The position numbers were made by a program, and so were the translations under genes. This document shows positions 13,415 to 48,971 of a stretch of DNA of 64,000 nt, one piece after another; position 1 is the first letter of the stretch, and every line of letters begins with the position of its first letter. The notes beneath the pieces are model-generated. The model searched no databases and was not told the origin of the DNA. It worked only from the letters and a program-made list of their open reading frames with translations. Origin of the DNA: an uncultured Leptolyngbyaceae cyanobacterium. GTDB taxonomy: Bacteria; Cyanobacteriota; Cyanobacteriia; Leptolyngbyales; Leptolyngbyaceae. The stretch covers positions 1-64,000 of the forward strand of contig CALIDI010000026.1 in NCBI GenBank assembly GCA_938023035.1, in the 5' to 3' direction.

Positions 13415-15619
13415 ATGCTAAGTAAGCGCTTCTCGTTATTCAGGAATGTATGGCATCAACTGCATCAAAGACAGCGTTCCCTGTTTACGGCATTTGGGGT
13501 CACGGGTTGCATTTTTCTATTGCGTAGCTTTGGTTGGCTTGAAGTCTGGGAATTAGCGATTTTAGATCAGAGCTTTCGCTTACGTCCACTAGAGCCTGTG
13601 GATGAACGCATTGTGCTGGTTGGGATTGAAGAGTCCGATTTAAGAAAGCTGCAGCGGTTTCCGATTCCTGATGGAGTGATGGCTGACCTGCTTCGGAAGC
13701 TGAAAACCTACCAACCTAGAGCCATTGGTCTGGATATTTATCGCGACTTACCTGTTGAACCAGGGCATCAGGAGTTACTCCAAATTTATCGAACGACCCC
13801 GCATTTGATTGGTATTCAACAAATTAAAGATTCGCGCAGTCAAGGGGTGCTGCCACCACCCATTTTAGCGGCTCATAATCGGGTTGGGTTTAACAATTTG
13901 GTTCACGATCCTGATAGTAAAGTGCGACGCGGCTTACTCTACTGGGAAGTGGATGGCAAAAGTTACCAAAGTTTTGCGTTGAAGTTAGCGCTGATCTACC
14001 TCAAAGCTGAAGCAATAGACCCAGCAAGCAGCGCAGATGGGTTAAATCAACTACAGTTGGGTAAAGCCGTATTCCCCATCTTTACGGCTAATAGTGGCGG
14101 CTATGCCAATGCGGATGATGGCGGCTATCAGTTCTTAGCAAATCTGCGGGGGCCTGCAAACCGATTTCCTCGGGTTTCTTTATCGCAGGTGTTAGAAGGA
14201 AAGGTCAAGCCAGACTTGTTTCGCGATCGCATTGTCTTAATTGGCTCAACCGCCATTAGCCTGAAAGACTACTTCTACACCTCGTACAGCAGCAGCGCGC
14301 CTGGCTCCCACGAGCTAGAACCCATGTCAGGAGTTGAATTGCAGGCAAACCTGATTAGTCAAATTATTAGCGCAGCCTTGGATGGACGGCCCATGATTCA
14401 GGTTTGGCCCGAACCGGCTGAGTGGCTCTGGATCTTTGCCTGGATCTGGCTAGGTGCAGCGGTTGCTTGGCGGTTGCGATCGCCGCTGAAAACGGCAGCC
14501 ATGATTGTTTTGGCAACCCTCTGCTTAGGGGGAGTCACCTACAGCACGTTTCTCTTGGGCTGGTGGATTCCGCTAATGCCTGCGGCCATTGGTCTGGTTG
14601 CGGCTGCAATCGTCATCATTGCCCATTTTGCCTACTTAGAAGAAGAGTTAAAACGTTCTAAGGAGTTTCTCCATAGCATTATCAACACGATTCCTGATCC
14701 CATCTATGTTAAAGACCAACAGCATCGCCTGATTGTCATCAATCAAGCCTTTTGCCAACTCCTCGGTTTCAAGACAACTGACATTGATCAAAACTCCAAT
14801 CCTTCCATTCAAGACTTACTCACTAATGCATTTAACGCCTCCCAAGATCAGCTCGTTTTTACTACCCGACAAGCATCGGAAACCGAGGCAAGTTTGCTAA
14901 ACTCAGCTGGGGTCATGCGCCAAGTTGCGATCAAGCGATCGCTGCATCAAGATGCGGCGGGCAATACCTTTCTAGTGGGAGTGATGCACGACATCACCGA
15001 ACGTAAACGAATGGAAGAAGAATTGAAACGGACAGCCGCTGAATTGGTGCGATCAAATCAAGAGTTACAACAGTCTGCCAACCGGTTACAGTACCAAGCC
15101 ACCCATGATCCCCTCACAGGGCTACCCAACCGCCATTTGTTTGAAGAACGGCTCACCCAATCCCTAATCTGGGCCGCTGAAAACAATCAAAAGGTTGCAC
15201 TGCTCTTCCTTGACCTGGATGGGTTTAAGTTAATCAATGATACATGGGGACATGATATCGGCGATTTATTGCTCAAAGCCGTTGCTCAACGATTAACCCG
15301 CTGTTTGCGTGGCAGTGACACCGTTGCCCGTCTAGGCGGTGACGAATTTACAGTAATCTTACCAGCGATTCCCTCCGTTGCCGATGCAGCCAGAGTTGCC
15401 GAAAAAATTCTGCACACAATCACTCAAGCCCTTACGATTGGCGGTCATGTCATCTACGTAACCTCTAGCATTGGTGTTAGCCTTTACCCCCACTCTGGAA
15501 GGGATGTTGAAACGCTAGTTAAAGCTGCTGACAATGCCATGTACCAGGCCAAAGGGCAAGGAAAGAACCGCTACTTGATTGATGCCCCAACTTCAACTGT
15601 GATAGAGATGGAAGCCTAG
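13415..15619 (+). CDS. CHASE2-PAS-GGDEF diguanylate cyclase
   Basis: Membrane-anchored 734-residue sensor making cyclic di-GMP. An N-terminal helix (about 23-40) leads to a CHASE2 sensor domain (about 45-320; DQSFRLRPLEPVDERIVLVGI, later DRIVLIGSTA), then three membrane helices (about 338-405). A PAS domain (about 415-530) and a short coiled linker follow, then GGDEF (about 560-722). The active site GGDEF is intact at 641-645, and an allosteric inhibition site RGSD is at 632-635, five residues upstream as expected. There is no EAL domain, so it should only synthesise the messenger. Confidence 0.95.
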   Translation: MLSKRFSLFRNVWHQLHQRQRSLFTAFGVTGCIFLLRSFGWLEVWELAILDQSFRLRPLEPVDERIVLVGIEESDLRKLQRFPIPDGVMADLLRKLKTYQPRAIGLDIYRDLPVEPGHQELLQIYRTTPHLIGIQQIKDSRSQGVLPPPILAAHNRVGFNNLVHDPDSKVRRGLLYWEVDGKSYQSFALKLALIYLKAEAIDPASSADGLNQLQLGKAVFPIFTANSGGYANADDGGYQFLANLRGPANRFPRVSLSQVLEGKVKPDLFRDRIVLIGSTAISLKDYFYTSYSSSAPGSHELEPMSGVELQANLISQIISAALDGRPMIQVWPEPAEWLWIFAWIWLGAAVAWRLRSPLKTAAMIVLATLCLGGVTYSTFLLGWWIPLMPAAIGLVAAAIVIIAHFAYLEEELKRSKEFLHSIINTIPDPIYVKDQQHRLIVINQAFCQLLGFKTTDIDQNSNPSIQDLLTNAFNASQDQLVFTTRQASETEASLLNSAGVMRQVAIKRSLHQDAAGNTFLVGVMHDITERKRMEEELKRTAAELVRSNQELQQSANRLQYQATHDPLTGLPNRHLFEERLTQSLIWAAENNQKVALLFLDLDGFKLINDTWGHDIGDLLLKAVAQRLTRCLRGSDTVARLGGDEFTVILPAIPSVADAARVAEKILHTITQALTIGGHVIYVTSSIGVSLYPHSGRDVETLVKAADNAMYQAKGQGKNRYLIDAPTSTVIEMEA

Positions 15620-32614: not shown

Positions 32615-35600
32615 ATGGTTCAATCTCGCCCGTGGCAACACTCTCAAAAACGAATTCCTCTGTGGTTGACTTTGGCTTTGCCTTTTGTGGTGCAGACGGT
32701 CGGGTCTGTGGCACTAGTGGGCTACACCTCTGACCGCAGTGGGCAGAAAACCGTAACGGATCTGGCGACCCGATTGCTCGATCAAGCGGGCGATCGCATC
32801 GTCCAACACTTGGAAACCTACTTTGAAGGACCTCAGCAGGTTGTTGAAGAAACTCAGGTGGCAGCGCAGTCGGGAATTTTAGACTGGCGCAATCTTCCTT
32901 TAGTCGAGTCTTATTTCATCCAGCAACTGAGGGTTCGCAAAAATCTCAGTGGGTTAATGCTTAGCACAGAAACTCAAGCGTTTTCAGACGTTCGTCGGGC
33001 TGCTCCTAAGCAACTTTCAATTCGCCGCCACAACCTTCAAACCGGTCGCCTGGAAAGTTATTCCGCGAATTTACAGGGAAAACGCCTAGAGTTGAAGGAG
33101 ACCATTCCAGATGACGCCCCTCCGACTGTGCCCCACTCTGCCCCTTGGTACCAGGCAACCAAACAGAAACCAGAGGGACACTGGCGACCCGTTGTTTCTC
33201 ACCTGCGGGGGCAGGGGGCAAAGCTGCCACTGCTAATGATGGCCTATTTTTTGCCCCTAGTTGACACCAAGGGTCGAGTGCAGGGGATGTTGAGTGCCAG
33301 CGCCCCCACTGAGCCGATCGGGGCATTTTTACGGCAGTTACAGATGGGCGATGGGCAAGCGTTTCTGCTAGATGAGCAGGGCTTCTTGATTGCGAGCTCA
33401 ACTTCAGAAATTCCTTTTCGGCAAGATTTGTCAACCTCGCCACTGCCGTCTTCGGAACCCGCTTTGCTGCGCCTGCGGGCTGAGGCCAGCCAGAATCCTT
33501 TAACACAAGCTTTAGCGACCTGGTTACAACAAAACCCCCAGCGCCATCAAACCGAGGTGCAGCGCGTGCGGTTATGGCAGAGGGGGCAACCTTACTTTGT
33601 GCGCACGCTGCCGTTTCAGTTAGACGACCAAACCCGCTGGACAATTGCGGTGGTGGTGCCAGAATCTGCCTTTATGGCCGAAATTCAAAACCATCGTCGC
33701 ACGACCCTGGTAATTTGCCTGGGCACGCTGGGGCTGGCGCTTGGCCTGGGGGTATGGACAGGGAAACGGGTGACCCAGCACCTTAACCAGATTAGCCGAG
33801 CCAGTCAAGCCATCGCTGCGGGTGATCTACAGCAACAACTTTCGACCCAAACGAGTATGGGTGAACTAGCCGACGTGGCTCAATCCTTTAATCAGATGGT
33901 AGCCCAGGTGCACCAATCCTTTGAGCAGGCGCACGTGGCCCTAGCCGAGTCAGAAGCAAAATTTGCCACCGTGTTTCGCACCAGCCCCGATCCGCTAGCT
34001 ATTCTGGCCTTTGCAGAAGGTCACATTCTAGCGGCGAATGATCAGCTTGTTGATTTCTTAGGCTACAGCCGCGCCGATTTGATCGGTAAAACCCCGATGG
34101 AATTGGGGTTATGGGTGGATCTGGAGGAACGCAGGCAGCTTCGGCAGCAACTCCAAATGGCAGGACAAATCCACAACCGGGAGGCAACCTTCCGGCTGTC
34201 GTCGGGGCAAATCAAAACGGTGCTGTTATCTGCAGAGACTTGTGCCCTGGATGGGCAAACCTGTGTAATTGCGGCCATTAAAGATATTACTGATCGCAAA
34301 CGGCTAGAGCGAGCACTGCAAGCCTCTCAAGCCAAACTCTCAGAAGTGCTGGATACGGCGATCGCTGGCATTATTCGCTTACGCCTCTACCCAGATTTAT
34401 CTTTTCAGTACGACTATGTTTCGCCCCATTACCGTACCCTCTTTGGCTGTACAGATCAGGAGTGGGAGCTTAGTTTTGATGTCTGGCGATCGCGCATTCA
34501 CCCAGATGATTGGCGCGATGTCGTTTTTCCAACAGTGCAAAGCCTGCTCAACCAGCAGGGCAGCGCCACCTTTAGCATGGAGTACCGGCTTCAGCGGCTG
34601 GATGGGTCTCTTTACTGGGTGATTGAAAAGGTTTGGGCCCAGTGGCAAGCAACGGCAGGGTGTTGGGCGCTGACGATTGTGCAAACAGATATTAGCGATC
34701 ACAAAGCCGCGGAAATCGCATTGCAGCAAAGTGAGGCCCGCTTCCGCAAAATTTCTGATATTTCTCCGGCTAATATCTACATTCTGGTCAGGCGTTCAGA
34801 TGGCTCCTTTTATTTTGAGCACATCAGTCAGGCGATCGAAGCCATCCACGAACTCAAGGTCGAAGACATACTGGCCGATTCTAGTATTCTGCTGGAGCGG
34901 ATCCATCCAGAGGATCAGCCCGGTTATGCTGCGGCTGTGCAACAGAGCCTAGCAACCCTGCAACCCTTTCGCCATGAGTGGCGTGTGATTACCCCTTCTG
35001 GCAAGGTGAAGTGGCTTCAGGGCTACTCGCAACCCCAACCCCGTGACAATGGAGAAGTGGCCTGGTACGGGGCAGTGATTGATATTAGCGATCGCAAACG
35101 CGCCGAAACCGCCCTGCTCCAAACCAATCAGGAGATGGCCGCCATTTTTACCGCCTTTCCAGATCTGATTTTTTACATCACGGCTGATGGTCAGATCCGC
35201 AACTTTCAGGCAAAAGATCCCCGTGACCTCTTCATTCATCCGGCTCAGTTTTTAAACCAACCCTTGACGACGGTGCTGCCACTTGAGGTGGGCCAATCCT
35301 TACACGAAGCGGTGCAACAGAGTTTAGCCACCAACACGTTGGTGACCGTGGAATACACTCTATCCCTGCCAGAGGGCGATGCCTTTTTCGATGCGAGAAT
35401 TGCCCCGATGGATGAAACCACTGTAATTGCTGTTGTGCGCAATATCACTGTGCGTAAACAGGCCGAAGCTGCCTTAAGTGCCAGTGAACAAAAATTTCGG
35501 AGTATTTTCAACTCCACTGTTCTCTTCATTGGGTTGCTCTCGCCAGAAGGAAAGATATTGGATATCAACGAGGCGGCATTACAGGTCGCAGATGTCGCGA

Positions 35601-38215
35601 TCGACGCAGTTGTGGGTCAATACCTCTGGCAGGGGTGCTGGTTTAGTGGCCTGCTCGACAGCCAGCAACGCCTGCAAACCCACTTTCAAATGGCGTTAGC
35701 AGGCACCACCCCCCGATTTGAGGTGGTGGCACGCAGGGGGGCTGATACCTATTTCTGGATTGAGATCACTTTTAAGCCCCTCTTCAATGGGGCAGGCCAA
35801 ATCGATGCTGTTTTAGCCGAAGGCTGGAATATTACTGACCGCAAGCAATCCGAATTGGCCTTGCAACGCATTAATCAACAATTACGGGCGTTTTTAGAAA
35901 ATGCACCGCTGGTGATTAGTTTGTTTAATGCTGAGGGCTGCTACTTACAGGTCAACCCAGCTTTTGCCGCTCTCATAGGAAAACCTGAGGCCGAGATTGT
36001 TGGGCGTACCTTTGCAGACTTTTTCCCACCCACCGTGGTTCAGACTTTTCAGGCCCGAATTGCCTGGCTGATTGAGCATGGGAGTTCCTTGGAAATTGAA
36101 GACGAGTTGCTTATCAATGGCACCCGTCGGACTTTTCAGTCTACGCTGTTTCCGGTGCCAGATGAGAATGGCCAAGCCACCACCTTTTGGGGGATCGCGA
36201 CGGATATTACCGATCGCAAACGCGCTGAAGCCGCCCTACAACATCTAAATGAAGAACTGGAGCAACGGGTACAGCAACGCACCCAGGAACTAGCGAGATC
36301 GGAGCAAGATCTGCGCACCATCTTTAATCATGTCTACGACGCTATCTTCATTCACGACTTAGATGGCACAATTTTGGCTGTGAATGACCGCGCCCTCACC
36401 CTCCATGGCGCAACTCGCGAGCAAATCTTAACCGGAGGGATAGCGATTATCTCTGGGCCAAATGCACCGGTCAACCAGTTTCCCAAGTTAATGCAACGGG
36501 TGCAACGAGAGAGGATTATGCAACTGGAATGGTGCAGCCGCCGCCTAGATACAGGAGAAATCTTTGATGTTGAGGTCTCTCTATGTGCTGTCACTCTAGG
36601 CAATCGTCCGGTAATTTTAGCTGGAGTACGAGACATTCGCGATCGCAAACGGGCCGAAGCGGCTCTGCATCAGCTCAACCTAGAGCTAGAACAACGCATC
36701 CGCGATCGCACCTGTGACTTACAAAAAGCGCTGCAAGCTGCCGAAGTTGCCAATCAGACCAAAAGTCTATTCCTGGCCAGTATGAGCCATGAACTGCGTA
36801 CCCCCCTTAATGTTATCCTTGGCTTTACCCAATTACTCCGTACTGATCTTTCCCTCAGTGCTGAGCAGCGAGAATACATCCATATTATGCAGCGGAGTGG
36901 AGATCATCTACTCCGTCTAATTAATGATATTCTCGATTTATCTAAAATTGAAGCGGGGCAAAGTATTTTAGAAGATACTAGTCTTGATTTTTTAGAATTT
37001 CTGAATGACTTGCAGACAATGTTTAGAGAGATTGCCCATGATAAAGGCCTTATATTTAATCTCGAGCTTTCACCCGATTTGCCGACCTATATAAAAATAG
37101 ATCCCAATAAACTCCGTCAGATTTTGATTAATTTGATTAGTAATGCCATTAAATTCACGACTCAAGGGAGTGTCACTCTGCGAGTCACCCCCTGTTTATC
37201 AACCGCTGCTGCTCCCAGTCATCTTTGTTTTGAGGTTGAAGACACGGGGGTTGGTATTGCCCCTGAAGAACAGACGGCCATCTTCGATGCCTTCACCCAG
37301 GCCAGAGCGGGCCGCCTCTCTCTAGAAGGAACTGGCCTAGGCTTGGCCATTAGTTCTCGACTGGTGCACCTGCTAGGGGGAGAACTCACCGTTGACAGCA
37401 CTTTGGGGCAAGGTAGCACCTTTCGATTTACGCTCCCATTGCGTTTAGCCAATACTGAGAATGTCCCCACCAAAGGCCGAAAAGAAGCCGTTATTGGGCT
37501 AGCTCCAGGGCAGCCTGTTTACCGCATTTTGGTGGTAGATGATCAACCTGATAACCGCTATCTTTTGGTGAAGTTATTAATGCAGATGGGTCTCCAAGTA
37601 CGGGAAGCTGCGAATGGTAGAGAGGCGATCGCCCAGTGGCAACAGTGGCATCCTCACTTGATCTGGATGGACATATGCATGCCTGACATAGATGGCTGTG
37701 AAGCAGCCCGTCAGATTCGAGTCGAGGAGCAGCAAAGTGAAGAATCGATCTATCCTGTCACTAAAATCATTGCCCTGACCGCCCAGGCATTGAGCGATGA
37801 GCAGAGCCGTGCCTTTGCCGCAGGTTGTGATGACTTTGTGATCAAGCCCCTCCAAATCGAAAAAATATGGGCAAAAATGGCAAAGCACCTGGGCCTGTCC
37901 TATCTCTATCAGGACAGGGAGCCAGATCAGTCACCTCCGGTTGCGGCTCGGGCCGGTCAGAAGGTCACTTCTGCTGCACTGGATGCGCTTGGAGCAGCCA
38001 TCCAGGAGATGCCCTTGGAATGGGTTGCAGCTCTGCGCCAAGCGGCGTTGCATTGTGACGAGTTTGAAACAGCCATCCTCATTCAGCAAATTCCTGCGGC
38101 CCAAGGCCCACTCGCTAACAGCCTGAGCGATTTGCTCCACAATTATTGCTTTGAGGTGATTGTGCAACTGACCGAGCAACGGAGTCATCCGAACACTACC
38201 CCCAATTCTCAGTAG
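32615..38215 (+). CDS. Giant hybrid sensor histidine kinase: Cache-HAMP-7xPAS-HisKA-HATPase-REC
   Basis: An 1866-residue membrane sensor. A helix at about 14-36 leads to a large extracytoplasmic Cache-like domain (about 40-360), a second helix (361-383) and HAMP (384-437). Seven PAS modules follow at about 445-560, 570-695, 705-830, 840-950, 957-1078, 1085-1203 and 1230-1345. Most are closed by a DITDRKRAE-type linker. The kinase has H1392 (SHELRTPLNV), N-box LINLISNAIKF and GTGLGLAIS. The receiver (about 1636-1760) carries D1686 in WMDICMPDIDG. A 100-residue C-terminal tail resembles the response-regulator-associated helices seen in related kinases. Ligands are unknown. Confidence 0.95.
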   Translation: MVQSRPWQHSQKRIPLWLTLALPFVVQTVGSVALVGYTSDRSGQKTVTDLATRLLDQAGDRIVQHLETYFEGPQQVVEETQVAAQSGILDWRNLPLVESYFIQQLRVRKNLSGLMLSTETQAFSDVRRAAPKQLSIRRHNLQTGRLESYSANLQGKRLELKETIPDDAPPTVPHSAPWYQATKQKPEGHWRPVVSHLRGQGAKLPLLMMAYFLPLVDTKGRVQGMLSASAPTEPIGAFLRQLQMGDGQAFLLDEQGFLIASSTSEIPFRQDLSTSPLPSSEPALLRLRAEASQNPLTQALATWLQQNPQRHQTEVQRVRLWQRGQPYFVRTLPFQLDDQTRWTIAVVVPESAFMAEIQNHRRTTLVICLGTLGLALGLGVWTGKRVTQHLNQISRASQAIAAGDLQQQLSTQTSMGELADVAQSFNQMVAQVHQSFEQAHVALAESEAKFATVFRTSPDPLAILAFAEGHILAANDQLVDFLGYSRADLIGKTPMELGLWVDLEERRQLRQQLQMAGQIHNREATFRLSSGQIKTVLLSAETCALDGQTCVIAAIKDITDRKRLERALQASQAKLSEVLDTAIAGIIRLRLYPDLSFQYDYVSPHYRTLFGCTDQEWELSFDVWRSRIHPDDWRDVVFPTVQSLLNQQGSATFSMEYRLQRLDGSLYWVIEKVWAQWQATAGCWALTIVQTDISDHKAAEIALQQSEARFRKISDISPANIYILVRRSDGSFYFEHISQAIEAIHELKVEDILADSSILLERIHPEDQPGYAAAVQQSLATLQPFRHEWRVITPSGKVKWLQGYSQPQPRDNGEVAWYGAVIDISDRKRAETALLQTNQEMAAIFTAFPDLIFYITADGQIRNFQAKDPRDLFIHPAQFLNQPLTTVLPLEVGQSLHEAVQQSLATNTLVTVEYTLSLPEGDAFFDARIAPMDETTVIAVVRNITVRKQAEAALSASEQKFRSIFNSTVLFIGLLSPEGKILDINEAALQVADVAIDAVVGQYLWQGCWFSGLLDSQQRLQTHFQMALAGTTPRFEVVARRGADTYFWIEITFKPLFNGAGQIDAVLAEGWNITDRKQSELALQRINQQLRAFLENAPLVISLFNAEGCYLQVNPAFAALIGKPEAEIVGRTFADFFPPTVVQTFQARIAWLIEHGSSLEIEDELLINGTRRTFQSTLFPVPDENGQATTFWGIATDITDRKRAEAALQHLNEELEQRVQQRTQELARSEQDLRTIFNHVYDAIFIHDLDGTILAVNDRALTLHGATREQILTGGIAIISGPNAPVNQFPKLMQRVQRERIMQLEWCSRRLDTGEIFDVEVSLCAVTLGNRPVILAGVRDIRDRKRAEAALHQLNLELEQRIRDRTCDLQKALQAAEVANQTKSLFLASMSHELRTPLNVILGFTQLLRTDLSLSAEQREYIHIMQRSGDHLLRLINDILDLSKIEAGQSILEDTSLDFLEFLNDLQTMFREIAHDKGLIFNLELSPDLPTYIKIDPNKLRQILINLISNAIKFTTQGSVTLRVTPCLSTAAAPSHLCFEVEDTGVGIAPEEQTAIFDAFTQARAGRLSLEGTGLGLAISSRLVHLLGGELTVDSTLGQGSTFRFTLPLRLANTENVPTKGRKEAVIGLAPGQPVYRILVVDDQPDNRYLLVKLLMQMGLQVREAANGREAIAQWQQWHPHLIWMDICMPDIDGCEAARQIRVEEQQSEESIYPVTKIIALTAQALSDEQSRAFAAGCDDFVIKPLQIEKIWAKMAKHLGLSYLYQDREPDQSPPVAARAGQKVTSAALDALGAAIQEMPLEWVAALRQAALHCDEFETAILIQQIPAAQGPLANSLSDLLHNYCFEVIVQLTEQRSHPNTTPNSQ

Positions 38216-38391: not shown

Positions 38392-39780
38392 ATGGTTTGG
38401 CAGCCCTATCATCACCAGCCTATGGTAAGTACTGAATCTGGTCAAAAAGCAAATGTCCTCATCGTAGATGACCAGCCTGATAACTTGCGCTTACTGTCTA
38501 CGATTCTACAAACCGAAGGCTATCGAGTCAGGCAGGCAATGAGTGGTGCGATGGCCCTCGAAACGGTCTCATTTCAAGTACCAGACTTAATTCTGCTAGA
38601 TATTCGCATGCCTGTCATGGATGGGTTTGCTGTTTGTCAGGCCTTGAGACAACTGCCCCTAGCCCGGGAAATTCCAATTCTGTTTATTAGTGCGTCAGAT
38701 GCAATTGATGATAAGGTCAAAGCTTTTGAAATTGGTGGCTCTGACTACATTACCAAACCTTTTAGTGCGCGCGAAGTGCTAGCGCGAGTGCAGTACCAAT
38801 TAACCATTCAGCAGCAACAGCAAGAACTAGTGACGCTCTATCGACAGGTACAGCAGTTCAATGCCCATCTAGAAGAGCAAGTTCAAGCTCGTACCCACGA
38901 ATTGCAACAGGCCCTAGAAAAGATCCAGCGGCTGAATCAGCTCAAAGATGACTTCCTCAGTACCATCTCCCACGAGCTACGCACGCCCCTGGCGAACATT
39001 CGGATGGTGGTGCAATTACTGGTTGCGGCCACCCAAGATCATGATTTCTTCCAAAATCGACCTGATGTTGAGGCTAACGCTACCACAGAGACACCTATCA
39101 TCTCTGGCCATAAAATTACGCAGTATCTCACCATTTTGCAACAGGAGTGCGATCGCGAACTGCGTCTCGTTCAAGACCTACTAGATTTACAACAATTGAG
39201 AGCAGATGTTGCTTTACTACAGCCCATCCCCATCAACCTGTACGACTGGGTTCCTCATGTTCTAGAACCCTTTGAAACTCGTACCCAAACTCACCAGCAA
39301 ACCCTCAGGATGCATCTAGCGCCCAACCTTCCCTTGCTAGAAACAGACCCCCATAGTCTCACTCGAATTCTCACTGAACTACTTGATAACGCCTGTAAAT
39401 ACACTCCACCAGGAGAAGGCATCTGGGTCGAAGCTCATTTAACAGAAGTCAAAGAAACGAGTAATCAGCCAGCGGAGGGTGCAAAAGCTCCAACAAATCA
39501 AGGCTTCCCTGAACAACCCAACAGGTCAATCCACCCAAAATCTGAAATTGTCATTTGTGTCATGAACTCTGGGGTAGAAATCCCCGTGGAAGAACTCCCC
39601 CGCGTTTTTGACAAGTTCTACCGCATCCCCAGTCGTGATCCCTGGAAGCATGGCGGCACAGGACTAGGGTTAGCGCTAGTCAAAAAGCTTGCTGAGCATT
39701 TGCAGGGAAGCATTGAAGTGACTAGTTTCAATCAGCTAACCCGCTTTACCCTCCGTTTGCCGATACGCATCGCGCCCTAG
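38392..39780 (+). CDS. Hybrid response regulator-histidine kinase (REC-coil-HisKA-HATPase)
   Basis: A 462-residue soluble protein, 176 bp downstream of the giant kinase. The receiver carries D70 (LILLDIRMPVMDGF) and K122. A Gln-rich coiled coil (about 135-190) leads to H194 in TISHELRTPLANIR. In the ATP domain the N-box LLDNACKY is normal, but the G1 box reads NSGVEIP rather than DxGxGI; GGTGLGLALVKK is intact. The insert between N and G1 boxes is polar and Pro-rich. This G1 variant recurs in a cyanobacterial kinase subgroup, so loss of activity should not be assumed. Confidence 0.92.
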   Translation: MVWQPYHHQPMVSTESGQKANVLIVDDQPDNLRLLSTILQTEGYRVRQAMSGAMALETVSFQVPDLILLDIRMPVMDGFAVCQALRQLPLAREIPILFISASDAIDDKVKAFEIGGSDYITKPFSAREVLARVQYQLTIQQQQQELVTLYRQVQQFNAHLEEQVQARTHELQQALEKIQRLNQLKDDFLSTISHELRTPLANIRMVVQLLVAATQDHDFFQNRPDVEANATTETPIISGHKITQYLTILQQECDRELRLVQDLLDLQQLRADVALLQPIPINLYDWVPHVLEPFETRTQTHQQTLRMHLAPNLPLLETDPHSLTRILTELLDNACKYTPPGEGIWVEAHLTEVKETSNQPAEGAKAPTNQGFPEQPNRSIHPKSEIVICVMNSGVEIPVEELPRVFDKFYRIPSRDPWKHGGTGLGLALVKKLAEHLQGSIEVTSFNQLTRFTLRLPIRIAP

Positions 39781-40783: not shown

Positions 40784-41177
40784 GGTCTCAAGAGATCAAT
40801 TCATTTCTACAATAGTCAAGGCACTTTTGCGCCGAACCAGCCTCATCCCCCTTGCTTGAATGCCTGTCAGGGCTATACCCCTTCTCCCTGTTTGGGAGAG
40901 GAGTTTCGGGTGGAGGCTAGAGCTAACCCCGTGGCAAGGATTTTCAGCATTTTCACAAAAATTGTCCGAAGTATTCTTTCCAGATAATCAGACTTTGTTA
41001 GCAGAATCAACTGATTCAGCCGTTTGATCAGGCTTTCCGGCCCTGAAACCAACCCCTTTTAACCCGGCTAACAGACTGAAAAATCTGTCAAAAGACAGAC
41101 CAAAATTTCGTTACATCTCTTGGCAAGCTGGGCATCTTAGGTTGGCCATGCCTAGTCGCAAAGGAAGTTTCCTAGCC
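40784..41177. other. Intergenic region with a dispersed repeat copy
   Basis: Divergent gap of about 390 bp. A copy of the dispersed repeat (CCTCATCCCCCTTGCTTGAA from 40841, then GGGCTATACCCCTTCTCCCT) occupies about 40841-40920. The remainder, with A/T-rich stretches near 40960-41110, should contain the promoter of the fusion kinase. Confidence 0.55.
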
Positions 41178-44100
41178 ATGAATATCGCTCATTCGCCCGA
41201 GGCAATTGCTGGATACCAATTGACGCAGCTGCTGTATTCCAGTTCTAGAACCTTTGTGTACCGAGCGCTTCATCAGGAGTCCCAGCAGGCGGTTATTGTT
41301 AAAATCTTGCGGCAGGAGTACCCCACCGCCAGTGAACTGATCCAGTTTCGCAACCAATATACACTGACTAAAGATTTGAATTTACCGGGGGTAGTGCAAC
41401 CCTACAAGCTGGAAAATTACGGCAATGGCTATGCCTTAATCATGGAAGACTATGGCGGAGTGTCCCTGCAAAGCCATTACCAAGCTAAGGCACTGACCAT
41501 GCAGGAGTTCTTCCCGATCGCGCTACAACTGGCCGATATCCTAGATGGGTTATGTCGTCATTGCATTATTCATAAAGATATTAAACCGGACAATATCCTC
41601 ATCAACCCCCAAACGGGGCAGGTGAAGCTGATTGACTTTAGTATTGCTTCACTGTTGCCGCGAGAAACCCAAACCCTGCTCAACCCTAGCGTTTTAGAGG
41701 GAACCCTGGCCTACCTGTCGCCAGAGCAAACAGGCCGCATGAACCGGGGCGTTGACTACCGCACCGATTTTTACTCGTTAGGAGTCACGTTTTACCAATT
41801 GCTCACCGGGCAACTTCCCTTTCAAGCAAATGATCCCCTGGAGTGGGTGCACTGCCACATCGCAAAGCAGCCGGAAATGGCCCACCAAGTCAATCCAACG
41901 ATTCCGCCAATGCTCTCTCACCTGCTCCATAAGTTGATGGCAAAAAATGCGGAAGACCGCTATCAAAGTGCTCTGGGGCTAAAGCATGACTTGTGGCAAT
42001 GTCAGCAAGCTTGGCAAACGCTAGGGGAAATCCCAGACTTTTCCCTAGGTCAACGGGATGTTTCTGACCGGTTTACAATCCCTGAAAAACTCTATGGCCG
42101 AGCCGCAGAAGTTGCGTCGCTGCTAAGTGCCTTTCAACGAGTCGCTGGGATTGCCCCGGACACTGTTAGCTTGGAGGCAACAGCGAAACAACAGCACGCA
42201 ACGCCCCTTGCCTCGAGCGAGTTGATGCTCATTACTGGGTTTTCTGGTATTGGTAAGACCGCAATTGTCAACGAGATTCATAAGCCCATTGCCCAGCAGC
42301 GAGGTTATTTCATTCGTGGCAAATTTGATCAGTTTCAGCGCAATATTCCCTTTTCGGGCTTTGTTCAGGCTTTTCGGGATTTGTTAGAGCAGCTACTGAC
42401 AAAGAGTGATGCTCAGATTGAGCGTTGGAAGCGAAAGATTCTCAATGCCTTGGGAGAAAATGCCCAGGTCATGCTGGATGTGATGCCAGGGCTGGAAGCG
42501 ATTATTGGGAAGCAGCCTGTTGTGCCAGAGTTATCCGGTGTGGCAGCGCAACATCGCTTTAACCTGGTGTTCCAAAAATTTATCCAGGTGTTTATCTCTG
42601 CCGACCATCCCCTGGTGATTTTCTTGGATGATTTACAATGGGCTGATTCAGCCTCATTGAAGTTAATGCAACTGCTAATGGGCGAGGCAAACAATCCCTA
42701 TTTGTTCATGATTGGAGCCTATCGTGACAATGAGGTGAATCCGGCTCATCCGCTAATGCTGACTGTGGATGCCATTCGGCAAGCGGGAACAACTGTGAAT
42801 GCGATCGCTCTTGCCCCTTTATCCCTAGCTGACTTAAATCATCTGGTAGCAGATACTCTCCACATCTCTTTAGAAGAGGCCCTACCGTTAACTCAACAGG
42901 TGTATCAAAAAACTCAGGGCAATCCCTTTTTTAGCAGTCAGTTTCTCAAGTCGCTTTATGAACAAGGGTACCTCACCTTTGACTATGAAAAGGGCAAATG
43001 GCAATATGCCCTAAGCCAAATTCAGTTGTTGGCCCACCAAGGGGATTTACTAGAGTTTATAGGGCAACAACTACGCCAGTTACCTTCAGCAACCCAAGAA
43101 CTGCTCAAACTAGCCGCTTGTATTGGGAATCCGTTTAGCTTGCTGCTATTGGCCGTAGTCGCTGAGAAATCACCAGCAGAAGTGGCCGCAGATCTATGGC
43201 CGGCTCTGCAAGAAGGGGTAGTGCTGCCGACCGGAGAAACCTACAAGCTATTTCAGACGGGGGAGATCGAGTCAGATCCTCTGATTCAAGCCGTCAGTCA
43301 AGGAGAGGCGATAGCAAACAAATCGCCCCTTCACTTCACTGCGTCGGGCGCGGTGCAAATCACTTATCAGTTTCTCCATGACCGGGTGCAGCAAGCCGCC
43401 TATTGTCTGATCCCAGAAGCCGAGAAGCCCCAAACTCATTGGCGAATCGGCCAGTTATTGCAGCAGCATACCCCTGTTGAGGCGCAGCAGGAATCTATTT
43501 TTGCGATTGTCAATCAACTAAATGCAGGTCTGACACTGATTACCCATGGCAATCAGCGCGAGCAATTGGCTCAACTCAACCTAAAGGCCGCCGATAAAGC
43601 TCAGGCAGCTACAGCCTATACAGATGCCTATCAGTATGCGGCAATAGGGCTAGAGCTGCTTGCAGACGACTGTTGGCAGAGTCAATATCCTCTAGCATTG
43701 GCATTATCTGAAAGAGCAGCAGAAGCAGCCTATCTAAGCGGTGACTTGGCTCAAATGGATCGATGGATTGAGCAAATTTTGCGCCATGCTAACGGTTTGA
43801 GCGATCGCCTCAAGAGCTATCAAATCAAAATTGAAGCCTATAAAGCCCAAAATCAACGCCTTGAAGCCGTGCAAACGGGGCTTTACGTGCTCAAGTTGTT
43901 GCAGGTTGAGTTCCCTGAATGTCCAACTAGTGCAGATATTCAACAGGCCATGGCCGACGTTCAGACCCATTTGAATGGGCGAGCTGTACAGGATCTCTTG
44001 CACTTACCAGAAATGCGTGATGCCCAGGCTCAGGCGATTATGCGAATTTTAGCCAGCATGACGGCTGCCGCCTACTTTGCTAAACCCAGCCTATTCCCCC

Positions 44101-46796
44101 TTTTGGTGTTTAAGCAAGTGAGTCTATCGATCCAGTATGGCAACGCGGTTGAGTCTGCGTTTGCTTACGCTTGCTATGGCATCAGTCTATGTGGAGTGGT
44201 CGGAGACATTGCGACTGGCTATCAGTTTGGGCAGGTTGCCCTGGAGTTGGTCGATCAGTTTAATGCCGAAGCCGTGCGATCGGTCACCACCTATGTAGTC
44301 AATGTCCTGATTCAACACTGGCAAAGCCCAATCAGTCAAACCATTGCACCGTTGCTCAGCGCTTACCAAAGTGGCCTCGATACGGGTGATTTAGAACATG
44401 CCGCCTTTGCCGCCGCCATGTATTGTTACCACGCCTATCTGAGCGGACGAGAATTGCATGGGTTAGCACGCGAAATGGCTACCTATGGGGATGTGTTGGT
44501 GAAACTGCGACAAGAAACCCCCCTTTATCAGCATCAACTGTACTGGCAGGTGGTGAATAATCTCACCAACCCTGGTGAAACCCCTTACTTATTGGTGGGC
44601 CCAATCTATGACAAGCAAACCATGCTACCGGTACACCAGCAGGCAAATGACCGCAGTACTTGCTGTATAGTTTATATCCAAAAAGCCCATCTCCATTATC
44701 TATTTCAAAACTACGCGCAAGCTTTAGAAGCTTTAGAAAAAGCTGTACAGTATTTAGATGCAGTCACTTCTAAAACCGATATTCCTCTCTTCTATTTCTA
44801 TGAAGCGTTAACTTATCTTGCTGTTTATCCCTGGCTAGAACTGAAAGATCAGCAAACTTGTCTCGAAAAAATTGCGACAACTCAGGCAAAGTTTGCTCAA
44901 TGGGCAACCTTTGCGCCGATGAATTATTTACACAAGCTCCATCTGATTGAGGCAGAAAAATATCGGATATTAAACCAACCTCTAGAAGCGATTGAAGCCT
45001 ATGACCAAGCGATCGCGATCGCCGAAAAAAATAACTACATTCAAGATAAGGCATTAGCCCATGAATTAGCGGCTCGGTTTTATTTAAACTGGGGCAAGCC
45101 TAAGCTAGCTCAGGTATACCTCGCTGATGCCTATTACAGCTATGCACGCTGGGGAGCAACCGCAAAAACCAAGGATCTAGAAAAGCATCATTCCCAATTG
45201 CTCAGTGCCATATTGAGCCAGGAGCCAAAATTACAAACGAGGGAGACAACAGCCTCCAGTACCCCTCTTAGTAGCAGTGCCCGGATTGCACAAATGCTGG
45301 ATTTTGCTTCGGTGATGAAAGCCTCACAGGTCTTATCAGGAGAAATCCAGCTAGAGAAGTTGCTGACCACTTTAATGGAAATCGTGATCGAAAACTCTGG
45401 AGCCGAAAAAGGATTACTGCTATTACCCCACGAGGGAGATTGGCGCGTTGCGGCAAAGTCTGACCCAAACACCAATAAGCATCTTGTTGTCACGTTCCAA
45501 TCAACTTATCCAACCGAATCAAACCTAGCTCCTCTCGTTTCAATGGCTCCGGGGCAGGTCGTACCCCAATCAGTGATTAACTATGTTTCACGCACCCTGG
45601 AGACGCTAGTGCTGAATGATGCGGCAGCAGAAGCAACCTTTGCAATGGATGCCTACATGCTCAGTCACAGGCCCAAAAGTGTCTTGTGTGCACCGATTCG
45701 GCAACAGGGGAGCCTGATTGGAATTTTGTATCTGGAAAATAACCTGGCCAATGGAGTGTTTACCCGCGATCGCCTAGAAGTCATCCAACTGCTGACCGCT
45801 CAAGCCGGCATTTCTCTGCAAAATGCGATGCTTTACGACTCTTTAGAGCAGAAAGTCAGCCAGCGCACCCAGGAGCTAAACGAAAAAAACCAATCACTTT
45901 CGCTAGCCCTACAGGAATTAAAAAAAGCGCAAACCCAGCTTATCCAAACAGAAAAAATGTCATCCCTGGGACAAATGGTCGCAGGGATTGCCCATGAAAT
46001 TAATAACCCCATTAACTTCATCTACGGTAACTTGAGCCATGCCTATAGCTATTGTCACAATCTACTAGAACTAATTGAAACCTATCAAAGTCACTATCCT
46101 CAAGAGGTTTCAGCAATTCAACAAAAGCTAGAAGAAATGGACTTTGACTTCTTAAAAGAAGATTTAGAAAAGCTAATGAAGTCCATGCAAATCGGAGCCG
46201 ATCGCATTCGTCAGATTGTGCTCTCTCTGCGCAACTTCTCGCGTCTAGATGAGGCCGAAATGAAACCAGTCGATATCCACGAAGGGCTAGACAGTACCCT
46301 GCTCATTTTGCAGCACCGTCTCAAGGAGAAAAATCAGCACGCAACAATTGAGGTGATTAAAAACTATGCGGCCTTACCAGAGGTCGTCTGCTACGCCAGC
46401 CAGTTAAACCAGGTCTTTATGAATATTCTCAGCAACGCGATCGACGCACTGGAAATTCAGAGTAGTTATTTAGCCCCCACCACAACAAAGGCAAACACCT
46501 GGAAACCGCAAATTCGGATTACCACAGGGCTTAACGATGAGGGATTCGCTTTCATTACTATTGCCGATAATGGGCCTGGCATTCCTGAAGATGTCAAGCA
46601 ACGATTATTTGATCCATTCTTCACAACCAAACCCATTGGCCGAGGTACAGGGTTAGGGCTATCGATTAGCTACTCCATTATCGAAAAACACAAAGGTCAT
46701 ATCCAGGTTGTGTCTGAGGTCGGGGTAGGAAGTGAATTTATCATTTCAGTTCCTCTACAACAAACATTTTGTGAAAAACCAGTGTTGGCCAGATAA
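41148..46796 (+). CDS. Fusion of Ser/Thr kinase, AAA-type ATPase, GAF domain and histidine kinase
   Basis: About 1882 residues from the ATG at 41148; ATG at 41178 (MNIAHSPEAIAGYQ) is an alternative, TTG at 41142 less likely. Numbering here counts from 41142. A protein kinase (about 22-290) has K54, HKDIKPDN at 144-151 and DFS in place of DFG at 165-167. The glycine loop is degenerate. An ATPase region follows with Walker A GFSGIGKT (366-373) and Walker B VIFLDDLQWAD, then a long helical repeat region. GAF lies at about 1400-1590, and the histidine kinase has H1618 in IAHEINNPINF with a C-terminal GTGLGLSISYSI. It joins both phosphorylation chemistries in one protein. Confidence 0.94.
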   Translation: MPSRKGSFLAMNIAHSPEAIAGYQLTQLLYSSSRTFVYRALHQESQQAVIVKILRQEYPTASELIQFRNQYTLTKDLNLPGVVQPYKLENYGNGYALIMEDYGGVSLQSHYQAKALTMQEFFPIALQLADILDGLCRHCIIHKDIKPDNILINPQTGQVKLIDFSIASLLPRETQTLLNPSVLEGTLAYLSPEQTGRMNRGVDYRTDFYSLGVTFYQLLTGQLPFQANDPLEWVHCHIAKQPEMAHQVNPTIPPMLSHLLHKLMAKNAEDRYQSALGLKHDLWQCQQAWQTLGEIPDFSLGQRDVSDRFTIPEKLYGRAAEVASLLSAFQRVAGIAPDTVSLEATAKQQHATPLASSELMLITGFSGIGKTAIVNEIHKPIAQQRGYFIRGKFDQFQRNIPFSGFVQAFRDLLEQLLTKSDAQIERWKRKILNALGENAQVMLDVMPGLEAIIGKQPVVPELSGVAAQHRFNLVFQKFIQVFISADHPLVIFLDDLQWADSASLKLMQLLMGEANNPYLFMIGAYRDNEVNPAHPLMLTVDAIRQAGTTVNAIALAPLSLADLNHLVADTLHISLEEALPLTQQVYQKTQGNPFFSSQFLKSLYEQGYLTFDYEKGKWQYALSQIQLLAHQGDLLEFIGQQLRQLPSATQELLKLAACIGNPFSLLLLAVVAEKSPAEVAADLWPALQEGVVLPTGETYKLFQTGEIESDPLIQAVSQGEAIANKSPLHFTASGAVQITYQFLHDRVQQAAYCLIPEAEKPQTHWRIGQLLQQHTPVEAQQESIFAIVNQLNAGLTLITHGNQREQLAQLNLKAADKAQAATAYTDAYQYAAIGLELLADDCWQSQYPLALALSERAAEAAYLSGDLAQMDRWIEQILRHANGLSDRLKSYQIKIEAYKAQNQRLEAVQTGLYVLKLLQVEFPECPTSADIQQAMADVQTHLNGRAVQDLLHLPEMRDAQAQAIMRILASMTAAAYFAKPSLFPLLVFKQVSLSIQYGNAVESAFAYACYGISLCGVVGDIATGYQFGQVALELVDQFNAEAVRSVTTYVVNVLIQHWQSPISQTIAPLLSAYQSGLDTGDLEHAAFAAAMYCYHAYLSGRELHGLAREMATYGDVLVKLRQETPLYQHQLYWQVVNNLTNPGETPYLLVGPIYDKQTMLPVHQQANDRSTCCIVYIQKAHLHYLFQNYAQALEALEKAVQYLDAVTSKTDIPLFYFYEALTYLAVYPWLELKDQQTCLEKIATTQAKFAQWATFAPMNYLHKLHLIEAEKYRILNQPLEAIEAYDQAIAIAEKNNYIQDKALAHELAARFYLNWGKPKLAQVYLADAYYSYARWGATAKTKDLEKHHSQLLSAILSQEPKLQTRETTASSTPLSSSARIAQMLDFASVMKASQVLSGEIQLEKLLTTLMEIVIENSGAEKGLLLLPHEGDWRVAAKSDPNTNKHLVVTFQSTYPTESNLAPLVSMAPGQVVPQSVINYVSRTLETLVLNDAAAEATFAMDAYMLSHRPKSVLCAPIRQQGSLIGILYLENNLANGVFTRDRLEVIQLLTAQAGISLQNAMLYDSLEQKVSQRTQELNEKNQSLSLALQELKKAQTQLIQTEKMSSLGQMVAGIAHEINNPINFIYGNLSHAYSYCHNLLELIETYQSHYPQEVSAIQQKLEEMDFDFLKEDLEKLMKSMQIGADRIRQIVLSLRNFSRLDEAEMKPVDIHEGLDSTLLILQHRLKEKNQHATIEVIKNYAALPEVVCYASQLNQVFMNILSNAIDALEIQSSYLAPTTTKANTWKPQIRITTGLNDEGFAFITIADNGPGIPEDVKQRLFDPFFTTKPIGRGTGLGLSISYSIIEKHKGHIQVVSEVGVGSEFIISVPLQQTFCEKPVLAR

Positions 46797-46935
46797 GTTT
46801 TGTACCTGTCACCGTCAAGATGCGTAGTGCCTTCTCGGCTGGGGACTATGGCATCAGTCTGTTGCCCCCACCCCCACTCGCGGTTAGACCGCATCCGCTC
46901 CAGCGGAACTGAAGGCTAAAGCATCAGTCTATCTA

Positions 46936-47075
46936 CCCTCACACCCTTTCTTGAATGCCCGCTAGGGCTATACCCCTTTTCCAGAGTGGGAAAGAGCCAG
47001 CTCCCCTTCTCCCTCGATGGGAGCGCTAAGGAATAAGGGTTGTTTAAGCTTGTCCAGAAATTTCTGCCCTGCTGG
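46936..47075. repeat. Dispersed G/C-rich intergenic repeat copy
   Basis: Begins CCCTCACACCCTTTCTTGAA, then GGGCTATACCCCTTTT, CCCCTTCTCCCTCGAT and CAGAAATTTCTGCCCTGCTGG near 47055. The first parts match copies at 32078 and 40841, the last part the copy near 31.2 kb. Confidence 0.75.
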
Positions 47076-47431
47076 CTTGAAGACCACGCTAGCAGCATAG
47101 CTTCTAAAGTGCAGCAACGCAGATCTCACCCATTTCCGCCATTCCCTTGTTCACCCATCTTCTTGAATCTCTGAGAATTAAGCTTTTGGCTTCATACCTC
47201 TCAGATTTTTTAATATCTCTTCAATGGTTCAGTATAATTACAATTTTTAAGTCACGAAAACATAGATCCAATCAAATAGCATTGCAAGCTAAATCAGTAA
47301 TTATACGGATTTATTTACAAGATCTTTCGGGGTAAAACTTTGTCATGAAAAACATCTGTAGAAAACACAGGCAGTATTTTCTGCAAATTCTGTGAATATT
47401 TGATTCTGCTCCTGATCAGGATGTCGGATGT

Positions 47432-47447
47432 GTAAACCTTGGTTTAC
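47432..47447. promoter_or_regulatory. Perfect palindrome GTAAACC-TT-GGTTTAC
   Basis: Seven-base arms with a two-base centre form an operator-like palindrome in non-coding DNA, 16 bp before a set of three direct repeats. It resembles a dimer-binding site, but the spacing (GTA-N10-TAC) is not that of NtcA (GTA-N8-TAC). The binding protein and target gene are unknown. Confidence 0.4.
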
Positions 47448-47462
47448 CTCACCGTGTGCTCC

Positions 47463-47502
47463 TCATTAAGTTCTCATTAGGGAAGTTTTCATTAAGGTGA
47501 AG
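47463..47502. repeat. Three direct repeats of TCATTARG
   Basis: TCATTAAG (47463), TCATTAGGGAAG (47474) and TCATTAAGGTGAAG (47489) follow each other at spacings of 11 and 15 bp. Helical-turn-like spacing suggests a regulator binding site, but no known box was matched. Confidence 0.4.
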
Positions 47503-48174
47503 CTACCCTTCAGATGATAGCTCGCAACTCAGGCACCTTACCTTTAGCTAGTGTGAATCTGAATAATTAGGCTCGATTTTCTATACAGATGGTCTTCTGT
47601 GTTCCTATGATCTATCTAAAGGTCGATTGATGAATGTGCTCTTTCAGATCCATTATTGATGGCTGAAATCTCATTAACTTGGATCTTTAAAACCTGTTTG
47701 GGTTTCTCATGAATTTCTGTTCTCTGTTCCTTTCCGAGTCTCAGGATGGCATAAATTACCATCAATCTGAGTCATCTTCAGGTTGAGTTTTGCCCCATCC
47801 TTTGGCCGGCATGGTGCTGAATCATCGGTTTTGCCAATCTGTCAATCAGGTTTCGCTCAAAGCCCTTTTTGTTCTTTGAGCAAAGCACTTCTGCTTGAGT
47901 TTGATTGAATGCTTTGAGTCTGCTTGGCGATCGCGGCGGCTATTCGGAAGCTGTACATACGACATCTCCGGATATCCGCAAGATCAGCGACCGGTAGCGG
48001 TCGTCAGGATAAATGGAGCCGCATAACGATTACCAGACATTTTGGTTTTTTCCATCCGGTTTTTTCTATGCTGCTGAGAGCGTTGCTGTCAGCAGGGCAT
48101 TAGCGGGACGGCGAGAGTCCGTTGTGAGTGAGGGTGATGTGAGTAACAGTGAACAATATCAACTTTTAGGTTTT

Positions 48175-48191
48175 AGGAGGGTCTTAAAGTG
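48175..48191 (+). promoter_or_regulatory. Strong ribosome-binding site that fixes a GTG start
   Basis: AGGAGG at 48175-48180 is followed after eight bases by GTG at 48189, ideal spacing. This near-perfect Shine-Dalgarno is unusual among the genes here and supports GTG as the true start of the downstream gene. Confidence 0.8.
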
Positions 48192-48971
48192 AAAGACGTG
48201 ATGCAACTTGTTGAGCGCAGAAAGCAAGAGTTTGCGCGGTTACCACTATGCCAGTTTCTCGAAGATGAAACGATTGACCCGCGCCAGCGGCTTGCCTGGG
48301 CACCTTGCCTGGCACCCTTTGCTCTGGGGTTTGGTGATCTAAATAAATATGCGTTGCGTCATGAGCCAACAGATGATCCTATTCAGCAGTTAATTAATCG
48401 CCATACCTATGAGGATGATCATCACTGGGTCTGGTTTCTAGAAGATTTGGAAAAACTAGGTCTGGATCTATCTCTGAAATTTAGTGACGCGATGCGCTTT
48501 TTCTGGGGAAACCAAACTTACAAAACGCGTCAGGTCTGTCAGCAGATTGCAATGGCTACCTACGGTAAGGAGCCAATTGTCGTCTTAGCAGCGATTGAGG
48601 CGATCGAGGCTACTGGTAACGTGGTACTTTCTCGCACAGCAAAAGCTGCTGAGGAACTGAGAAGGATCACGCAGCAAAATTATCGTTACTTCGGGCAACA
48701 TCACTTTTGTGTGGAAACGGGGCATGCCATGGGCACAGATGATGTTGAAGATCTTCTAGAGACTATTGAGCTGAATGAAACTCAGCGATCGCAAGCCTAT
48801 GAACTAGTTGAACTGGTTTTTGATGTATTTACTGATTGCTTGAATGAGTTAATGGATTCCATGACTCAGCAGCGTGCTGAAAGTCCCTATGCCAAGTCTG
48901 GACAAAAGATACTTGAGATGCAGCGGCAGGAAGAAAAAGTCAGCGATATGCCAGAATTAGAACGGGTTTAA
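48189..48971 (+). CDS. Putative heme-oxygenase-fold metalloprotein
   Basis: A 260-residue, mostly helical soluble protein of no named family. It has two ExxH motifs, E75-D-D-H78 in YEDDHHWVWF and E176-T-G-H179 in HHFCVETGHAM. Extra candidates are E137/E140 in AAIEAIEATG and H171/H172. Paired Glu/His motifs on separate helices of a 240-260 residue all-helical protein are what TenA-like, heme-oxygenase-like diiron oxidases (HDO family) show. I therefore infer a metal-dependent oxidase or oxygenase; no substrate can be named. The last 40 residues are polar and probably disordered. It stands alone after a 1.4 kb leader region. Confidence 0.7.
   Translation: MKDVMQLVERRKQEFARLPLCQFLEDETIDPRQRLAWAPCLAPFALGFGDLNKYALRHEPTDDPIQQLINRHTYEDDHHWVWFLEDLEKLGLDLSLKFSDAMRFFWGNQTYKTRQVCQQIAMATYGKEPIVVLAAIEAIEATGNVVLSRTAKAAEELRRITQQNYRYFGQHHFCVETGHAMGTDDVEDLLETIELNETQRSQAYELVELVFDVFTDCLNELMDSMTQQRAESPYAKSGQKILEMQRQEEKVSDMPELERV

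Follow-up and report, generated by a model that had tools for sequence, protein, structure and literature searches.

A predicted AetD-family diiron oxidase gene in a Leptolyngbyaceae cyanobacterium, with a pocket unlike that of AetD and a giant HstK-type dual kinase as a recurrent neighbour

The window, by which we mean the whole 64,000-nucleotide stretch of contig CALIDI010000026.1 analysed here, contains a gene at 48189 that a sequence-only reading had put forward as an undescribed diiron enzyme of the heme-oxygenase-like type, preceded by a long, structured non-coding leader with a regulatory role of its own. This raises the question of which enzyme the gene encodes, on what it might act, and whether the leader or the neighbouring genes tell us how it is used. 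The locus comprises the following features.

41142..46796, + strand: giant HstK-type (cbSTKIII) Ser/Thr-His dual kinase, assigned with Pfam, about 1,870-1,884 aa
46797..48188, + strand: intergenic region and putative leader, 1,392 bp, not conserved
46913..47074, no strand assigned: copy of a dispersed repeat of ~160 bp, which has eight more main copies across the genome (72-86% identity)
48175..48181, + strand: Shine-Dalgarno sequence AGGAGGG, with 8 nt between AGGAGG and GTG
48189..48971, + strand: AetD-type heme-oxygenase-like diiron oxidase (HDO) gene, 260 aa, GTG start

The placing of an oxidase gene at 48189 behind a near-ideal Shine-Dalgarno sequence was confirmed. AGGAGG stands 8 nt before the GTG, and M1 is at least 90% conserved among 50 aligned homologues; the GTG start is supported because the family alignment begins at this same residue. 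In addition, GAGGAG occurs at the matching place upstream of the oxidase genes of the nearest relatives. From the kinase stop (46796) to the oxidase start there are 1,392 bp without a clear gene. A 59-aa ORF at 48013-48192 was considered as a leader coding sequence and rejected, as it is without a homologue in 41 genomes of the taxonomic family; it overlaps the oxidase start codon as GTGA, probably by chance.

The leader is indeed long and does contain small palindromes and hairpins, but the description of it as structured holds only weakly. It is very improbable, in our view, that the 1.4 kb region controls the oxidase gene as a riboswitch or as structured RNA of another kind: its length, its hairpins and palindromes and a 150-nt window with a folding z of -2.6 near 47847-47996 speak for such a role, but the last 311 nt fold with a z of just -0.59 relative to shuffled sequence, the leader gave no Rfam match, and the strongest of its 150-nt windows (z -2.8) lies inside the dispersed repeat. 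Promoter- and terminator-like sites were fewer in the leader than in shuffles, and across the 41 family genomes its conservation did not go beyond short repeat-like or chance-level matches. With none of these scans giving anything convincing, the riboswitch was set aside as a candidate, and the proposal that a structured leader provides the gene with its own regulation is not supported, since this region is unconserved and holds a dispersed repeat. Apart from its copy of a genomic repeat, the leader is for the most part unremarkable spacer and only weakly structured. Short matches related to the 46913-47074 repeat are also present in relatives' genomes.

The identity of the protein is much clearer. 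A phmmer search of the PDB gave AetD as the only significant match (E 1e-59), with 41% identity over residues 1-231 and no gaps, so that the residue numbering of the window oxidase is identical to that of AetD. Against the Pfam family PF14518 (Haem_oxygenas_2) it scores 22.6 bits, below the gathering cut-off of 28.9, and the protein looks unassigned because this match stays sub-threshold. An AlphaFold model built with 50 homologues has a mean pLDDT of 91.4, and when used in a fold search it retrieved AetD (8JI3) with a Z of 32.0 and an rmsd of 1.1 Å over 223 residues, whereas the other heme-oxygenase-like folds listed all had Z values of 16 or below; the model thus predicts a heme-oxygenase-like seven-helix fold that is closest to AetD. 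Judged from these alignments and the model, the window oxidase is almost certainly a member of the AetD family. Weak NCBIfam and PDB matches to PtsI/enzyme I (E 0.0014 and 0.46) were dismissed as helical-bundle noise, and a possible second homologue in the window genome at 15083-15412 (E 0.04, 24% identity) was treated as chance.

In AetD crystal structures, Fe1 is held by H79, H172 and E176, and Fe2 by D76, E140, E176 and H179 (PMC10654658, PMC11611611). The ungapped alignment places all six of these iron ligands in the window oxidase, at the following codons.

48414..48416, + strand: D76, Fe2 ligand, aligned to AetD D76 (PMC10654658)
48423..48425, + strand: H79, Fe1 ligand, invariant in 50 aligned homologues
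48606..48608, + strand: E140, Fe2 ligand, invariant in 50 aligned homologues
48702..48704, + strand: H172, Fe1 ligand, invariant in 50 aligned homologues
48714..48716, + strand: E176, bridging ligand, at least 90% conserved and otherwise D
48723..48725, + strand: H179, Fe2 ligand, invariant in 50 aligned homologues

Where relatives have kept the full ligand set, position 76 is nearly always D or E. The extra Glu ligand is replaced in the window oxidase by F48 (3H/3C set), as expected of an AetD-type enzyme, and both F48 and Y167, which contacts the substrate carboxylate, are nearly invariant in the 50 homologues. The earlier proposal of a heme-oxygenase-like diiron oxidase is therefore supported by the AetD match, the Z of 32 for the model and the conserved ligands, and structure prediction with a fold search, the check it had suggested, returned a predicted heme-oxygenase-like fold with one diiron centre. 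Its individual ligands fared less evenly: E140, E176 and H179 stand, whereas E75, H78 and E137 are not ligands and H172 had been missed; likewise, by the AetD alignment and crystal structures, one of the two supposed ExxH motifs is E176xxH179, but the other is really D76xxH79. The notion of an undescribed or unassigned enzyme has to be given up, as the family has a characterised founder in AetD and a second characterised member in SktA.

The 50-sequence alignment left out a subgroup of five loci (L101, L102, L104, L106 and L107) that has lost several iron ligands, with Y at positions 79 and 172, and is possibly non-catalytic; next to it lies a conserved group of genes that includes an amino-acid-kinase/PUA gene. 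More distant homologues, at ~27% identity, are encoded by about 290 plasmids of Escherichia and Salmonella and by 36 of Piscirickettsia, and among the matches listed these (e.g. L196:6001-7503) are annotated as hypothetical proteins; the homologue on an E. fergusonii plasmid lies in an ORF of about 500 aa.

Comparison with characterised relatives places the protein more precisely. It shares with UndA, BesC, CADD, SznF, HrmI, PolF and FlcD a heme-oxygenase-like fold and a diiron (or Mn/Fe) centre, but it differs from the other HDOs found by fold searches in that these reach Z values of at most 16 and 8-16% identity. With AetD, the aetokthonotoxin nitrile synthase (8JI2-8JI7, 8TWN/8TWT/8TWW, 8ZVG/8ZVH), it shares 41% identity over 231 residues, the Z of 32, six identical iron ligands and both Y167 and F48. 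Unlike AetD, however, it has a C-terminal extension of ~30 residues and carries I139, T142 and F214 in its pocket where AetD has M139, A142 and S214; among aligned homologues T142 and F214 are usual and I139 is common, so that it is the AetD residues that are the odd ones out. These three positions argue against the window oxidase being an AetD orthologue, although they choose no product, and with these differences nitrile formation cannot be taken for granted.

Which amino acid such a pocket would accept can be approached from what is known of the two closest enzymes. AetD makes the indole-3-carbonitrile from 5,7-dibromo-Trp and 5-bromo-Trp and also, though less efficiently, from unhalogenated L-Trp, which is converted to about 35% (PMC10654658), and SktA, according to a review, converts 5-bromo-Trp into 5-bromoskatole and differs from AetD by M139T, A142T and S214F (PMC13108848, citing J. 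Am. Chem. Soc. 2025, 147, 6326). A profile search of the window genome (G000; 96% complete) found no PF04820 halogenase, and the substrate is therefore probably not halogenated by that route. The likely substrate, as far as the sequence can indicate it, would be an aromatic amino acid without halogen, whether L-Trp or another one. We know of no activity for any family member besides AetD and SktA.

A skatole synthase resembling SktA, which would turn L-Trp into skatole and cyanide and not into a nitrile, is a real possibility for the window oxidase, if one somewhat short of likely. By the residues that the review names (PMC13108848), the two proteins share T142 and F214, which AetD lacks, and the SktA ligand set is predicted to be that of AetD; by the same review SktA has T139, whereas residue 139 here is Ile, neither Met nor Thr, and T142 and F214, being the commonest states in the family, do not settle the product. 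We think it rather doubtful that the enzyme acts instead on some other aromatic or hydrophobic amino acid (Phe, Tyr or Leu-like) to give a non-indole product. AetD has been crystallised with L-Phe (8ZVH) and L-Tyr (8ZVG), both among the fold-search matches, the related HDO PolF uses L-Ile (PMC12614342), and the indole-facing positions 139, 146, 214 and 221 of the window oxidase all differ from those of AetD; against this, F44, F48 and Y167 of the aromatic amino-acid site that binds Trp are kept, and both of the closest characterised enzymes use Trp.

The gene upstream of the leader gives the locus a second aspect, which AetD's does not share. Its product has the Pfam domain order Pkinase - AAA_16 - GAF - HisKA - HATPase_c, that is, an N-terminal Ser/Thr kinase, at least one GAF domain and a C-terminal HisKA with HATPase, and so is a dual kinase of the cyanobacterial HstK or cbSTKIII class (PMC2176072); it is one of two HstK-type kinases found in the window genome. 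Two further sensor kinases lie directly upstream of it, one at 32615-38215 (dCache-HAMP-PAS-HisKA-response regulator) and one at 38392-39780 (response regulator-HisKA).

A survey of neighbours in other genomes, as the sequence-only reading had recommended, showed an HstK-type dual kinase to be a recurrent companion of the oxidase. AetD-family genes are carried by 34 of 386 sampled cyanobacterial genomes, and at the 64 oxidase loci that we collected a kinase lies within 6.5 kb in 28 cases; others carry Trp halogenases (6 loci, by blast), O-methyltransferases (4) and FMO-like flavoenzymes of two kinds (6 and 7). Many loci show no conspicuous partner besides the kinase, which is convergent and 5-311 bp from the oxidase (L066, L067, L068, L069). 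Several loci are distinctive in other ways. In Acaryochloris sp. IP29b (L005:8001-10673) the oxidase is fused to a Pyr_redox_3 flavoenzyme and a DUF4388-like tail in an 890-aa ORF, and at L052, L053 and L054 this flavoenzyme is a separate downstream gene; at L095 (G429) a family oxidase stands beside polyketide-synthase-like and P450-like genes; and at L075/L192 (G177) the genes that come after an oxidase with T139/T142/F214, the SktA-type pocket, are a Trp halogenase, an FMO-like gene and a convergent dual kinase, together probably a halogenated-indole gene cluster.

Across 19 genomes, 15 of the 28 AetD-type genes have a kinase core no more than 8 kb away, where 0.68 would be expected (P about 4e-18), a value that assumes uniform placement and serves as a guide only, since the loci share ancestry and are not independent. 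As a control, an O-methyltransferase family in the same genomes had none of its 10 members within 8 kb of a kinase, with positions compared by eye. The remaining 13 AetD-type genes are without a kinase nearby and the pairing is therefore not obligatory; the large kinase family, for its part, often occurs without any oxidase. On the kinase tree, those that are linked tend to group together (12 changes vs 23.3, a result reached in 0 of 500 shuffles), but the linked label requires at least 8-9 changes on both the kinase and the oxidase tree, so that linkage arose or was lost several times, and a single clade of linked kinases is ruled out. The arrangement in the window is not the usual one: its kinase precedes the oxidase by 1.4 kb on the same strand, whereas 14 of the 15 linked cases have the kinase downstream, mostly in convergent orientation.

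The two genes also tend to stay in one genome even when unlinked. The clade of the window kinase, within its own taxonomic family, comprises the window genome, G007, G047 and G048, and all four carry a window-type oxidase; in G007 the two genes are megabases apart, yet both have been kept. The branching order in the two trees is alike, namely window, G048, (G007, G047), with the exception of a long-branched oxidase (L060) that falls beside the window's in the oxidase tree. In genus g7, the kinase is present in all three oxidase-bearing genomes; for the five genomes of this genus without the oxidase, the best kinases of four belong to other clades, and the matches in the fifth are no more than partial, at 43%. 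G050 and G017, from another clade, have likewise kept both genes but unlinked. Vertical descent explains part of this co-retention. Taken on position and co-retention statistics, the oxidase and the dual kinase are probably functional partners.

These data have to be set against ordinary secondary metabolism, in which the enzyme would be a tailoring oxidase of the AetD or SktA type for an indole natural product and the kinase a chance or passive neighbour. AetD itself serves a toxin pathway (PMC10654658), and relatives of the window oxidase adjoin Trp halogenases (the six blast loci and the PF04820 gene beside the L075 oxidase) as well as FMO-like enzymes, O-methyltransferases and a polyketide-synthase-like gene. 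However, there is no adjacent tailoring gene in the window, nor any match to PF04820 or to the flavoenzyme partner in its genome, and kinase proximity is ~20 times expectation, even at loci free of tailoring genes (L066, L067, L068, L081 and L100). We therefore regard a tailoring role as rather unlikely, and think much the same of its corollary that the genes for the remaining steps lie elsewhere or have been lost.

The explanation that we favour, and consider reasonably likely, is that of an AetD-family diiron oxidase that acts on an aromatic amino acid and has the HstK-type dual kinase next to it as its partner. The amino acid, in free form and most likely unhalogenated L-tryptophan, would coordinate Fe1 with both its amino and its carboxyl group. 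Activation of O2 would then give a peroxo-diferric species, after which cleavage and rearrangement of the side chain would leave a small indole. This may be indole-3-carbonitrile as in AetD, skatole together with cyanide as in SktA, or something related. The kinase might control when the oxidase is used or might read its product via the GAF domain, although both the direction and the molecule are guesses. A bolder form of this proposal, which we hold to be unlikely, is that the pair constitutes a two-gene module widespread in cyanobacteria, in which a volatile made by the oxidase (indole nitrile, skatole or cyanide) is the GAF ligand of the HstK-type kinase; if true, it would give this kinase family its first chemical signal.

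What is new here is an AetD-family member with a pocket unlike AetD's and a recurrent pairing with HstK-type kinases; an association of AetD-type oxidases with a subset of HstK or cbSTKIII kinases was not found in the literature searched. AetD chemistry has so far been tied to one toxin pathway and one skatole pathway, but the family is common in cyanobacteria, mostly with a pocket unlike that of AetD and often beside a giant dual kinase. To our knowledge, the inputs of HstK kinases are largely unknown, and if the pairing is functional it would provide a concrete candidate signal for them, as well as a source of candidate enzymes for the single-step conversion of tryptophan into a nitrile or into skatole. 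Given how frequently a giant kinase is their neighbour, our findings suggest that cyanobacterial AetD-type enzymes make or serve a chemical signal.
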